From contig MIZA01000006.1 in assembly GCA_001875345.1 (NCBI GenBank), positions 1-34,349 of the forward strand: a stretch of DNA of 34,349 bases, in the 5' to 3' direction. Below the pieces are notes generated by a model, which was not told the origin of the DNA, made no database searches, and saw only the letters and a list, made by a program, of their open reading frames with translations. Positions 28,458 through 33,637 of this stretch are shown here, piece by piece. Origin of the DNA: Marine Group III euryarchaeote CG-Epi1 (GTDB lineage: Archaea > Thermoplasmatota > Poseidoniia > MGIII > CG-Epi1). Positions within the stretch are counted from its first letter, which is position 1. Every line of letters starts with the position of its first letter. The position numbers and the translations under genes are program-made.

Positions 28458-28688
28458 TTACTTTCGACCGCGAGCCATCTCGGACCTAGCTACATCACCG
28501 TCTTTATCGATGTAGTATAGGAATTTGTCTTCTCTAGTGACACCTGCATCTGCAACTTTTTCTGGTCCGCCACCGGTCTTTTTACCGCCTCGAGCCATCT
28601 TAGTTCTCCATACGTGTCCGTCTTTTCCTAAGTAATATAGGTAGCCTGCTTCTTTTGTTACTCCTGTCTTTTCAACTTTTTCAGCCAT
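28458..28688 (-). CDS. Small protein made of two about 30-aa repeats
   Basis: 'EKTGVTKEAGYLYYLGKDGHVWRTKMARGGK' and 'ADAGVTREDKFLYYIDKDGDVARSEMARGRK' align internally; TATA-like 'tatatatact' upstream. Confidence 0.8.
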   Translation of the reverse strand: MAEKVEKTGVTKEAGYLYYLGKDGHVWRTKMARGGKKTGGGPEKVADAGVTREDKFLYYIDKDGDVARSEMARGRK

Positions 28689-28800: not shown

Positions 28801-29256
28801 ATGGACATGTCCACTGAAATCGGCGATGGAGTAATTATGGACTATTTCGTATCTATGTTATTGATCGGAATCGGAGTTGCTCTCTTAGCTACAGGCTTAT
28901 TCACATCATACTTTGGTGCAGGTAAATCTCAAAAGATTGGTCTCGGCCTCCTTGTAACTGGAATTTTAGCAATAATCATAACATACATCCTAACTTTTGA
29001 AGCTGGAACTGGAGTAACAACCCAATTTGATGATGGAGTATTCATGGATGCTCTAGTATCTGGAATTTCGGCGCTAGCCGGAATGATTATTGGAATGTTT
29101 GTAATCTTATTTGTACTTATGAAAGTAGATACTGTTGACGATTTAGAAGATTTAGACTTAGAAGATCTCGAAGATTTAGACTTAGATGAAGAACTTAAAA
29201 AATTAGAAAAAGAATTAAATGCTGAATCAACTGATTCATCAGGAGAGGAGGAATAA
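28801..29256 (+). CDS. Small multi-TM membrane protein with acidic C-terminal tail
   Basis: Hydrophobic segments plus 'VDDLEDLDLEDLEDLDLDEELKKLEKELNAESTDSSGEEE'; TATA-like 'tttataac' about 30 nt upstream of ATG. Confidence 0.78.
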   Translation: MDMSTEIGDGVIMDYFVSMLLIGIGVALLATGLFTSYFGAGKSQKIGLGLLVTGILAIIITYILTFEAGTGVTTQFDDGVFMDALVSGISALAGMIIGMFVILFVLMKVDTVDDLEDLDLEDLEDLDLDEELKKLEKELNAESTDSSGEEE

Positions 29257-29257
29257 A

Positions 29258-29533
29258 ATGGCCGAAACATCTGAAATTGCAATATCTATGCTTATTGTTG
29301 GCTCTGCCTTATCTATGCTACTGATGGGATTACTCATATCATATTACGGCAGTAGTAAAACTAGAAATGTTGGAATTTTATTTTTAGCGCTAGGTATAGC
29401 TCTGATGTACTACGTAACTTCCATGGCATACGACAGTGTAGTATTCATGAACTCTATCCTCGCTTTCGTCGGTGGAATGCTAGGTGGAATTATTGGCATA
29501 GTTATTTTCTTAGTTGCAATAATTAAATCATAA
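29258..29533 (+). CDS. Small multi-TM membrane protein, paralog of the preceding gene
   Basis: 'SMLIVGSALSMLLMGLLISYYGSSKTRNVGILFLALGIAL...DSVVFMNSILAFVGGMLGGIIGIVIFLV' aligns with upstream protein; SD 'ggagaggagg' before the ATG at 29258 (track start 29219 is probably too long). Confidence 0.75.
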   Translation: MAETSEIAISMLIVGSALSMLLMGLLISYYGSSKTRNVGILFLALGIALMYYVTSMAYDSVVFMNSILAFVGGMLGGIIGIVIFLVAIIKS

Positions 29534-29577: not shown

Positions 29578-31506
29578 GTGAAGTCGGAAGACGACCTTTG
29601 GGATACGGGAAAAGAAGACGATACATCTAGTTCAAATTCTGACGATGATAGTTCAACTCTAGACTTATCTGAAACTTCGCCTGAAAAAGATGAAAAAGAA
29701 ATTAATCTAGCCATACCTGAAGAAAGTGAAGCTATTGAAAAAGACGAGGATTGGGCAATCCCTTTAGCTGAAGATGTTGATGGCTTAAATCTAAGAACTA
29801 TTGGAATAGTAGGCACTGTTGTTATTCTCCTCCTAACAGGAACTCTTTTTTTCTTATTAAATGAAACAAACGCTGAAATTGAAGTTCCCAATGAAAGATA
29901 CGATGAACAAATTAATTATAACGTAAATGGCTTCTTAAATTTTGACAGTAATTTAGATGTTCCTATACCATTTGGATTCTTTGACAATGATATTGTAATA
30001 AACAATTTAGACGTTGTTTTCCAGGGTGAGCTATCTCTTGGAATAGAAGGGCCTCGCCATGTTGAAAAAAATGGATATGGTGAGACTAAAAATTCTCTTT
30101 TTAGGAAATACATAGAGCAAGACCTTGACGATGTTGATGGTACAATCACTGAAGAAGGATCTGAACCTGCTGAACTAAAGAATTCAAACATAAAAAGTAC
30201 ACAAGACCAATATGTTGATAGTAGTTCTCTAAATATTATACGATCGGATATAGTTTCCAATGCTTCTACTGCAAAAATCTCAGGAATAGGTCAACGATGG
30301 GCATGGCAGAGTGCTACAGATTGGATACCTCGTCAACATAGCAGCGGCATATTGCCTCATGGGAATGCATATATTGGAAAGACTTTGACAGTAGGTGACA
30401 GTGGAACTCTATACGAAAGTGGCATTCAATTTACTACTAAAGTGGATAAAGGTGAAAAAATAAAAGATTATGATACGGTAAAAATCCAGATAATGACCTC
30501 ATACGTCTCAGATTCATTACTTGGATATGAATATGAATACAGTTATACGTTTTCTTTTTACATGTCAGAAGTCAGTAGCCTCCCTTTAAAATTTGAAATG
30601 AGATTAACTTCTGAAGCGAAATCACCAGGTGCTCAATTATATTCAATTGATTTAAAATATACTGCCACAGCTAAAGATGTATTTGAGGGAAATGAATTTG
30701 TTCCCACCAAAAATTACGACTCTGTTTCACCTAACAGTGAGGGGGAATTTTTGGCTTGGGACAATGGTGCGCCTGCCTTAGGCACATCTTGCGATGAAAA
30801 TTCACAGCTGAATGGAAATTTTAACTTACAATCTGGAATTGCTGAAGCTAGAAACAATATCTCTTCTTTTGACAATTACATCAAAGACCAACAGGCCAAA
30901 AAAGAAGAAGCTTTTGTAATTGAAGCTAATTTTAGCTCTAACAATGATAATAGATGGAATTTTACAATGGCACATAGTAATGAGCAATCTCAAAAAGTAG
31001 ATGGCTGGATTGTAGACTACCGCCAAGAGAAAATTAATGGTACTACTTTTGTAAACGGAACTGAAAAAGAACTAGATAACCCAATTCTAAAAATGGAAGA
31101 AATAGACACTCCATTGACTGTTTGCTCAGCTGAAAATCTTATGACTGATTTTGAAGAAATTGCCGATTGGGCTATTGACAAAAATACTAATAATGTTAAT
31201 TACGAAACTACTACTCTAATTTTAGGTCAAAATTTGATATCTGAACAAAGCCTTTCATCTCCAACCTCTATTCTTGACTTTGGAAATTTAGATCTAATCA
31301 GCGCAATCTCAGACTTAAATTCTGGGAACTGGAATTTCAATGATTATTCTAATAACATTGATGTTGATACTGCAGGAAGTTACGCATATTTCCTTGATAG
31401 GAGTGGAGGTAGTGACTCTTTAGGTTATGATTATCAGGAAGTAGCTGGAATTGATGCAAAAAACGGATTAGTTATGTTTAATTTGCAATCTAAAAACGCA
31501 CTTTAG
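29578..31506 (+). CDS. Hypothetical single-pass membrane protein with acidic N-terminus and large external domain
   Basis: GTG start; acidic N-term 'MKSEDDLWDTGKEDDTSSSNSDDDSS', TM 'TIGIVGTVVILLLTGTLFFLLN', then about 530 aa with N-x-S/T sites. Confidence 0.75.
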   Translation: MKSEDDLWDTGKEDDTSSSNSDDDSSTLDLSETSPEKDEKEINLAIPEESEAIEKDEDWAIPLAEDVDGLNLRTIGIVGTVVILLLTGTLFFLLNETNAEIEVPNERYDEQINYNVNGFLNFDSNLDVPIPFGFFDNDIVINNLDVVFQGELSLGIEGPRHVEKNGYGETKNSLFRKYIEQDLDDVDGTITEEGSEPAELKNSNIKSTQDQYVDSSSLNIIRSDIVSNASTAKISGIGQRWAWQSATDWIPRQHSSGILPHGNAYIGKTLTVGDSGTLYESGIQFTTKVDKGEKIKDYDTVKIQIMTSYVSDSLLGYEYEYSYTFSFYMSEVSSLPLKFEMRLTSEAKSPGAQLYSIDLKYTATAKDVFEGNEFVPTKNYDSVSPNSEGEFLAWDNGAPALGTSCDENSQLNGNFNLQSGIAEARNNISSFDNYIKDQQAKKEEAFVIEANFSSNNDNRWNFTMAHSNEQSQKVDGWIVDYRQEKINGTTFVNGTEKELDNPILKMEEIDTPLTVCSAENLMTDFEEIADWAIDKNTNNVNYETTTLILGQNLISEQSLSSPTSILDFGNLDLISAISDLNSGNWNFNDYSNNIDVDTAGSYAYFLDRSGGSDSLGYDYQEVAGIDAKNGLVMFNLQSKNAL

Positions 31507-32258
31507 CCAATATAGTTAACGTCTACTTTTTCTTCAACTTCAGATTCACTTTCTTTCAATTGATTTGTTATGCTATCAACTTGCTTAGCTCTCTTTTCTA
31601 ATTCCTCAAGATCTATTTCAATATCTAATAATTTCTGAAGAGATTTCAAAACAACACTTGCAGATTTAGGATCTACCATATATCCACTAGTTTCTCCCAT
31701 TAAACAACCACCTTCCATTCCTTGCAACTTACCCAAACCTAACAAAAGCCCTGAAGCTCCAACGATTCCAGCACCAGGTTCACCATCTATGAATTCAACA
31801 TCTGCTGATTTGAATAACTCTACCACATCTTGAGAAGTAGCTGCACCAAGAACCCTAGGCTCGGGAACTAATTTACCCAAACCATAACCTCCTAATGTAT
31901 AAATGCTAGAAACTCCCATCTCTTTGACAAGTGAGATTAATTGACTGCATAATTCATACTGCCCGGAAGAATCCATACCTTGGTATTCGCCTACTAAAAA
32001 TAACAAATCTTTGTTTTTCCCTTTACCCTTATGATAATAGAGTTCATTATTAACTAATTTAACAACACCATCATCATCAATCAAAACTTGTGGAGGAAAA
32101 TGGGAAGAATATATTTCAGTACATTTTTTAGCTTTCAATTCTTCAATTAAATGCATTGCTGCTAATTTACCAACATTTCCTACACCTGGCAAACCTTCGA
32201 GAAGTATTGCATCTTTTAATTTAATATCTTCAATTTTAACAACTTCTGTAAAGCTCAA
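31503..32258 (-). CDS. PAC2-family (proteasome assembly chaperone-like) protein
   Basis: 'LKDAILLEGLPGVGNVGKLAAMHLIEELKAKKCTEIYSSHFPPQVLI', 'LVGEYQGMDSSGQYELC', 'YTLGGYGLGKLVPEPRVLGA'; TTG start in TTGA overlap with the nop10 stop. Confidence 0.88.
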   Translation of the reverse strand: MSFTEVVKIEDIKLKDAILLEGLPGVGNVGKLAAMHLIEELKAKKCTEIYSSHFPPQVLIDDDGVVKLVNNELYYHKGKGKNKDLLFLVGEYQGMDSSGQYELCSQLISLVKEMGVSSIYTLGGYGLGKLVPEPRVLGAATSQDVVELFKSADVEFIDGEPGAGIVGASGLLLGLGKLQGMEGGCLMGETSGYMVDPKSASVVLKSLQKLLDIEIDLEELEKRAKQVDSITNQLKESESEVEEKVDVNYIG

Positions 32259-32416
32259 AATGATTTCTCCTTTAGCATTCTTCGATATTTACCATATTTA
32301 TCTTCAGGAGAATATTTAGGAGGGAGTGGATTGGATGTTTTACTGTTACAACTATCACAAACGGAACCTAAAGTAAACATATTGCATTTCTTACAGTGCA
32401 AAATTGAAGAACGCAT
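32255..32416 (-). CDS. nop10: H/ACA ribonucleoprotein component Nop10
   Basis: Hand translation: MRSSILHCKKCNMFTLGSVCDSCNSKTSNPLPPKYSPEDKYGKYRRMLKEKSF*; 'PPKYSPEDKYGKYRR' is diagnostic; not in the ORF track (53 aa). Confidence 0.93.
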   Translation of the reverse strand: MRSSILHCKKCNMFTLGSVCDSCNSKTSNPLPPKYSPEDKYGKYRRMLKEKSF

Positions 32417-33189
32417 TATGCCCTCTCAAAGGAACCTATACCACCCTCTTTTTTGAGGAGACTTAAAACCAAATCTACTGCAGATTTTAGTTCTTCTTCT
32501 GCCTGTTTGTAGTTTGGGGCTTTAACTAATACTCTATAGTTAGGAGCTCCATCTGAAGTTATTGTCAATTTGCTGTCTTCATGGATCGCTTTAGGACCCA
32601 TCAATGAAGCTTTGATTCCTTCTACGCCGTCTTCTTTTTCGGAAACCAAACTGAGCATTCCTCCTATGGTAACATATGGTGGAGTAACATTTTCAATTCC
32701 TACTTTGATAAATTCAGACACCCATTTCCCTTTCCACGCTTTTTTGAAATCATCACTGTTAATGACTGATTCTTCAAACGCGCGATATAGACTTTCGTAA
32801 TCATTAACTAAGTCTTCTCTAATTTCATTACGTAATTTTTCGTAATCTACCTTTATGTTCTTCGCAACAAGTTCAAGTAATTTGGAAGCGCGTTGTTCAT
32901 TCTTCCATTCTCTTATTTTCTCTTTTTTTCTATGCCCTGAAACTTGTCTTACTGACGCATCGATGATTTTACTACCTTTTTTAACTTTAGTAACCTTGGC
33001 AACAACCATTTGGCCTTCGCGAATAAAATCTCGTATATATTTTACCCAACCTGAGGCTACTTCTGAAATATGAACAAAAGCTTTCTGATCAGTATATTCA
33101 AGTAAATCTAGAGTAGCGCCGAAATCTTTTACTTCAATAACACGCCCAATAATATAATCGCCATCTTCAGGTACGTCCAAAGGACTCAC
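32416..33189 (-). CDS. Translation initiation factor aIF2 subunit alpha
   Basis: S1 domain 'GDYIIGRVIEVKDFGATLDLLEYTDQKAFVHISEVASGWVKYIRDFIREGQMVVAKV', 'SVRQVSGHRKKEKIREWKNEQRA'; GTG start. Confidence 0.95.
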   Translation of the reverse strand: MSPLDVPEDGDYIIGRVIEVKDFGATLDLLEYTDQKAFVHISEVASGWVKYIRDFIREGQMVVAKVTKVKKGSKIIDASVRQVSGHRKKEKIREWKNEQRASKLLELVAKNIKVDYEKLRNEIREDLVNDYESLYRAFEESVINSDDFKKAWKGKWVSEFIKVGIENVTPPYVTIGGMLSLVSEKEDGVEGIKASLMGPKAIHEDSKLTITSDGAPNYRVLVKAPNYKQAEEELKSAVDLVLSLLKKEGGIGSFERA

Positions 33190-33356
33190 TCAAGCTCCTC
33201 TAGTATCTCCCCAAGAATCTTTGCCTTACCGCCAGTAGGAAGTGCAATTGTTGAACCTGTAACTGGATCCTTTACTACAGTATCACACTTATCAAAAATC
33301 ACTACAGTGTAGTCGCTATCAGGACTTTTAACTTTTAGAAATTTACTTTTTGTCAT
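33186..33356 (-). CDS. rps27e: Ribosomal protein eS27, lacking the zinc-ribbon cysteines
   Basis: Hand translation: MTKSKFLKVKSPDSDYTVVIFDKCDTVVKDPVTGSTIALPTGGKAKILGEILEELE*; 'LPTGGKAKILGEILEEL' matches eS27; position between eL42 and aIF2alpha is conserved; not in the ORF track. Confidence 0.9.
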   Translation of the reverse strand: MTKSKFLKVKSPDSDYTVVIFDKCDTVVKDPVTGSTIALPTGGKAKILGEILEELE

Positions 33357-33358
33357 TT

Positions 33359-33637
33359 TTACTCCGTTAACTCGAACTTTTTAGCTCTAAAGTTTTTCTT
33401 GTGGTGTGCTTTACCTGTCTCAGTACATCTGTACCTAACATAAACTCTTTTTGTAGGCTTTTCACGGCCTTCTGGTTTAGGTCTAGGAAAACCACCGTAG
33501 CCAGACGTTACACTTCTAAACTTTCTCTGCCCTCTAGCTAACTCAGAAGCTCGCTTCTTTTTAACTACTTCAATTTCATGAAGTGTATGCTTTTTTGCAT
33601 AAGGGCTGTACATCTTAACTTTTCGTGGTATTTTCAT
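33359..33637 (-). CDS. rpl44e: Ribosomal protein eL42 (L44e), with most zinc-ligand cysteines lost
   Basis: 'MKIPRKVKMYSPYAKKHTLHEIEVVKKKRASELARGQRKFRSVTSGYGGFPRPKPEGREKPTKRVYVRYRCTETGKAHHKKNFRAKKFELTE'. Confidence 0.96.
   Translation of the reverse strand: MKIPRKVKMYSPYAKKHTLHEIEVVKKKRASELARGQRKFRSVTSGYGGFPRPKPEGREKPTKRVYVRYRCTETGKAHHKKNFRAKKFELTE

Follow-up and report, generated by a model that had tools for sequence, protein, structure and literature searches.

The balance of evidence suggests that eS27 and eL42 of a Marine Group III (MGIII) archaeon are the sole, working versions of these ribosomal proteins and no longer bind zinc, the sites having been lost at different times and a lower demand for zinc being the most likely advantage. 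The corresponding genes belong to a minus-strand cluster that closes the window, i.e. the whole stretch of 34,349 nucleotides that was analysed, which represents contig C6 of a 1.18 Mb genome (G000) that is 87% complete. In the order of the cluster, the genes are as follows.

33359 to 33637, minus strand: eL42 (L44e), C-minus, 92 amino acids; open reading frame, Pfam PF00935 and alignment to solved archaeal eL42.
33186 to 33356, minus strand: eS27, C-minus, 56 amino acids; open reading frame, Pfam PF01667 and alignment to solved archaeal eS27.
32416 to 33189, minus strand: aIF2-alpha, downstream neighbour; open reading frame with homologues in 90 of the 91 loci searched.
32255 to 32416, minus strand: Nop10, with two CxxC motifs kept; open reading frame and Pfam PF04135.
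31503 to 32258, minus strand: PAC2-family protein, downstream neighbour; open reading frame, family named from sequence, with homologues in 81 loci.

Elsewhere in the window, a 76-amino acid protein encoded at 28458 to 28688 (minus strand) comprises two similar halves (GVTKEAGYLYYLGKDGHVWRTKMARG and GVTREDKFLYYIDKDGDVARSEMARG), and overlapping open reading frames at 28801 to 29256 and 29219 to 29533 (both plus strand) encode two similar small membrane proteins, with a large membrane-anchored protein encoded directly downstream. Searches against phage records returned no match.

Alignment of eS27 with solved archaeal homologues revealed that the four ligand cysteines are replaced with S,S,D,T (KSPDSDY ... 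KDPVTGS), and that the cysteine of the FDKC motif lies outside of the ligand positions, as the initial annotation had proposed. The protein nevertheless matches PF01667 with 47.5 bits against a cut-off of 24.5, a profile that does not require the two CxxC knuckles that are typical of the family and missing here, and the AF2 model (pLDDT 91; TM 0.88 versus P. abyssi eS27) retains the small beta fold. Archaeal eS27 proteins with a C4 site (PDB 1qxf and 7zhg) have family and fold in common with the window protein, as well as being present once per genome and adjoining eL42, but differ from it at all four ligands. The window protein is, then, eS27 by descent, fold and place, yet is not a zinc-ribbon protein. 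Equivalent alignment of eL42 placed S,A,C,T at the ligand positions (YSPYAKKH ... RCTETGKAH), which bears out the earlier count of three ligands gone from four. In this case the match to PF00935 is 90.8 bits against a cut-off of 25, this profile likewise not requiring the Zn-Cys4 site that is typical of eL42/L44e and missing from the window protein. The AF2 model of eL42 fits the solved protein only loosely (TM about 0.6) and was left out of the argument.

Both genes are under purifying selection within the window's genus (hereafter g1), with mean pN/pS values of 0.053 for eS27 and 0.065 for eL42. The same combination that marks the bacterial C-minus proteins, namely replaced ligand cysteines in a protein under selection (pN/pS 0.05-0.07), is therefore found in eS27 and eL42, in agreement with the original view that these are conserved forms of functional appearance, and we infer from the sequences that both proteins function without zinc. 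No second copy of eS27 or eL42 was detected in the window's genome at its 87% completeness, and no C-plus paralogue of either was found in g1, where every genome with a match (genomes up to 92% complete) has one only. An assembly error was rejected, since the ligand states are identical in every g1 genome read.

The distribution of the ligand states was examined across the g1 species, two other genera of the same MGIII family (g2, comprising MAGs such as NP112, NP106, Cayman_92_shallow and ALOHA_A2.5_61, and g3, which is CG-Bathy1), two families of MGII (f2 and f3) and some 40 additional Thermoplasmatota families. Counts refer to loci as opposed to species, some genomes being present in two collections, with at least 10 distinct g1 species read. 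The SSDT form of eS27 is present in 21/21 g1 loci, and none of the 167 other Thermoplasmatota loci has this form or any other site-less eS27. Instead, eS27 is CCCC in CG-Bathy1 (2/2), g2 (7/9), MGII (44/44) and the other Thermoplasmatota (112/112), the remaining two g2 loci reading CCCX with one position unreadable. The SACT form of eL42, conversely, extends beyond g1 (21/21) to CG-Bathy1 (2/2) and MGII (43/44), whereas eL42 is CCCC in g2 (9/9) and in 111 of 113 loci from other Thermoplasmatota, the other two being CDCC. The single deviating MGII locus (L177; SLCS, 1/44) has a different C-minus pattern, SPSLKKH ... CTESGK. In another Thermoplasmatota lineage, L104 (family f32) and L194 have eL42 with CPFDKK, in which one zinc ligand is changed to Asp. 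No report of a C-minus archaeal eS27 or eL42 was found in the open-access literature.

The initial annotation envisaged a coordinated loss of zinc sites in two neighbouring proteins, which does not hold given that eL42 is C-minus across MGII and CG-Bathy1 while eS27 is so only in g1. The partner of eL42 is eL24, the gene for which sits away from eL42 in the genome. This protein is C-minus in g1 and CG-Bathy1 (KCSFTGKPI ... FINSKAKKN) and in MGII (ICSFSGEEI ... FKNSKARKN), whereas g2 has the C4 form (NCSFCGKRI ... FCSSKCRKN). At the DNA level, the pattern of the C4 first knuckle was found in 74/89 non-Poseidoniia Thermoplasmatota and also in g2, but in none of the 26 genomes tested from g1 and MGII. 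The two proteins that change in step thus appear to be eL24 and eL42, with eS27 having apparently changed later, or at least separately, and in g1 only.

Other common zinc ribosomal proteins, the family identity of which was checked with Pfam, retain their sites. All four cysteines are intact in uS14, eL37, eL40, eL43 (read in the family's genomes) and eS31 of the window's genome; for eL40 the Pfam score of 20.8 is below the cut-off of 23, with the phmmer match being 3e-21. The first knuckle of eS31 is CX4C in most g1 species (L316-L320, L325, L326, L328 and L329), and CX2C in L322 and the sister genera. Judged by sequence, therefore, the zinc sites of the ribosome are reduced from eight to five, with eS27, eL42 and eL24 lost and uS14, eS31, eL37, eL40 and eL43 remaining, where eight refers to the common zinc ribosomal proteins surveyed and eL34 and rarer proteins are outside of the count. 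Within the window, Nop10 with its two CxxC motifs and TFS with both of its zinc ribbons keep theirs, as previously noted. It had been suggested on this basis that the zinc requirement of the ribosome was selectively lowered. The selectivity stands, in that three of the eight zinc ribosomal proteins are siteless while other zinc motifs are kept; an actual saving of zinc is plausible for eS27.

The order and number of these losses were considered next. In a tree of aIF2-alpha and the PAC2-family protein, MGIII (g1, g2 and g3) forms one clade (100/100), and a clade of g1, g3 and MGII that excludes g2 is rejected (p 0.0005). With the ligand columns masked, the eL42 tree also places g2 inside MGIII (99/93), and horizontal import of the C4 eL42 of g2 is accordingly unsupported. 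The order within MGIII is less settled, with two small concatenations in disagreement: one has CG-Bathy1 branching first and the other places the root inside g1. Loss of the eS27 site, with all four ligands lost once in the g1 ancestor, would be a single event provided that g1 forms one clade. Loss of the eL42 site appears to be older, being common to MGII and CG-Bathy1, but the pattern of eL42 and eL24, which are C-minus across MGII, CG-Bathy1 and g1 with g2 as the exception, calls for either two to three losses or one loss that was later reversed in g2.

The less probable of these histories seems to be that the eL24 and eL42 sites were lost once, ancestrally in Poseidoniia, and later regained in g2, although it has some appeal. 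It would explain why MGII, CG-Bathy1 and g1 share the eL42 letters S,A,C,T, and is compatible with g2 belonging to the well-supported MGIII clade and with rejection of the grouping that leaves it out. However, it is improbable that two proteins would each regain three cysteines, the masked eL42 tree offers no outside source from which they might have been imported, and the unsettled order within MGIII counts against it also. Neither do identical replacement letters decide the history, because a solved archaeal eL24 from outside of the MGII/MGIII group (PDB 9l94_M) is C-minus with a pattern nearly identical to that of g1 eL24 (C-x-Y/F-S/T ... F-x-N-S-K-A), indicating that convergence on the same letters occurs. 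In that ribosome eL24 is C-minus and eL42 is C4, whereas in g1 both are C-minus. Ribosomal protein S4, the history of which has been studied, likewise has a zinc site in some lineages and not in others. The S4 forms spread by gene transfer, whereas for eL42 the masked tree and the order of the genes favour vertical inheritance inside MGIII.

Genes for zinc uptake and light harvesting were examined with respect to the selective cause. The window's genome has znuA, znuC and znuB adjoining a COG0523-type GTPase gene (L062:6491-12750, G000:C14). Its ZnuA comprises 891 amino acids, including 78 His, with long Asp/His tracts and an EF-hand-like stretch, and the opposite strand after znuB encodes a DUF1636-like cysteine protein and then the COG0523 GTPase. 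The set as a whole is likely to be a zinc-scavenging cassette, the combination of znu genes beside a COG0523 GTPase having been linked to zinc shortage (PMC2770081). According to the same paper, the archaea sequenced by then had no recognisable Zur. Homologues of znuA, znuB and the COG0523 gene were not found in CG-Bathy1. More broadly, a znuB-type permease was found in 7/14 g1 genomes and rhodopsin in 6/14, compared with 0/7 genomes of g2 and g3 in each case, absences that are soft since the MAGs are incomplete. The rhodopsins indicate that g1 probably occupies a light-exposed habitat, the depth of the g1 and CG-Bathy1 lineages being taken from record names and rhodopsin. Several g1 genomes (G001 and G012; about 90% complete) have neither rhodopsin nor permease, yet have the C-minus eS27. 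A zinc transporter is present in most MGII but not in the deep genera, a distribution that was tied to zinc-poor surface water (Rinke et al. 2018; PMC6461757).

A lower zinc demand fits best for eS27, because g1 has zinc-scavenging and light-harvesting genes that were not found in the sister genera, and zinc sparing in sunlit water is a plausible account of that loss. A shortage of zinc in surface water cannot account for all three losses, however, because CG-Bathy1, which we take from its name to be a deep-ocean bin, has C-minus eL24 and eL42. The adaptation to zinc-poor surface seawater that was first proposed is thus retained for eS27, on the circumstantial evidence of rhodopsin and znuACB/COG0523 in g1, but not for eL24 and eL42.

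The light-exposed habitat also raises the prospect that cysteines were removed to avoid thiol oxidation in sunlit, oxygen-rich water, as opposed to saving zinc. The presence of rhodopsins in g1, which probably lives in light, is in keeping with this idea, but it appears very improbable in view of the five ribosomal zinc sites that remain and of a comparison between G000 and CG-Bathy1 conducted on nearly whole genomes. Across 686 orthologous pairs, cysteine content is 0.97% in G000 and 1.02% in CG-Bathy1, and of the 141 CxxC motifs of CG-Bathy1 in the alignments, G000 keeps 121. Only four of the 36 orthologues with at least two CxxC motifs in CG-Bathy1 have lost any in G000: eS27, which loses both, two with partial changes at clustered-cysteine (iron-sulphur-like) motifs, and one that is of low complexity and poorly aligned. 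Given that eS27 is the sole clear whole-site loss and that most CxxC motifs are kept, zinc sites are not eroding in general, and erosion of zinc and cysteine sites across the genome was rejected on this comparison.

Neutral loss has a somewhat better claim, and we regard it as possible but doubtful. Stabilising changes could have rendered the zinc sites dispensable, with subsequent decay bringing no zinc-saving benefit; drift accompanied by structural compensation would leave identical sequences, and a difference of three zinc sites in each ribosome may be too small to be of consequence. The haphazard distribution, with C4 eL24 and eL42 in g2 and their loss in CG-Bathy1, is as expected under neutral loss, as is the repeated loss of the eL24 site, which is seen in the archaeal 9l94_M structure and in eukaryotes, where eL24 often lacks the cysteines. 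Against this, the eS27 loss coincides with a genus that has zinc-uptake and light genes, all four of its ligands were replaced and then fixed across g1 at a pN/pS of 0.05, and other CxxC proteins show no decay.

The preferred reading is that of working proteins with a reduced need for zinc, in which the fold would probably be held by the protein's own core and by rRNA contacts in place of Zn-Cys4, and the most likely advantage would be a permanently lower zinc demand. A more ambitious version, which we put forward tentatively and with no great expectation, has zinc being removed from the archaeal ribosome stepwise and permanently, first from eL24 and eL42 in marine Poseidoniia and then from eS27 in one sunlit MGIII genus, with scarce zinc as the selecting agent and no zinc-binding backup.

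C-minus paralogues of the bacterial proteins L31, L33, L36 and S14 were reportedly described by Makarova in 2001. Such paralogues belong to the Zur regulon, and a role in zinc saving has been proposed for them. The change is the same as that seen here, in that the ligands of a Zn-Cys4 ribbon are replaced and the protein is retained, and the g1 proteins would represent a constitutive counterpart. However, bacteria usually have C-plus and C-minus copies that are switched by zinc level, whereas only the C-minus copy was found in g1, and the families concerned (eS27, eL42 and eL24) are archaeal/eukaryotic, unlike L31, L33, L36 and S14. Stepwise removal, if true, would be to archaea what the regulated switch is to bacteria, but in obligate form.

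Ribosomal proteins without zinc are familiar chiefly from bacteria, as second copies under regulation, whereas here single-copy archaeal core proteins have given up their sites for good. The eS27 zinc site, which is intact in every other readable Thermoplasmatota locus, can evidently be dispensable. Moreover, since the losses occurred at different times and can be mapped on a tree, the question of whether scarce ocean zinc shapes the ribosome becomes testable.
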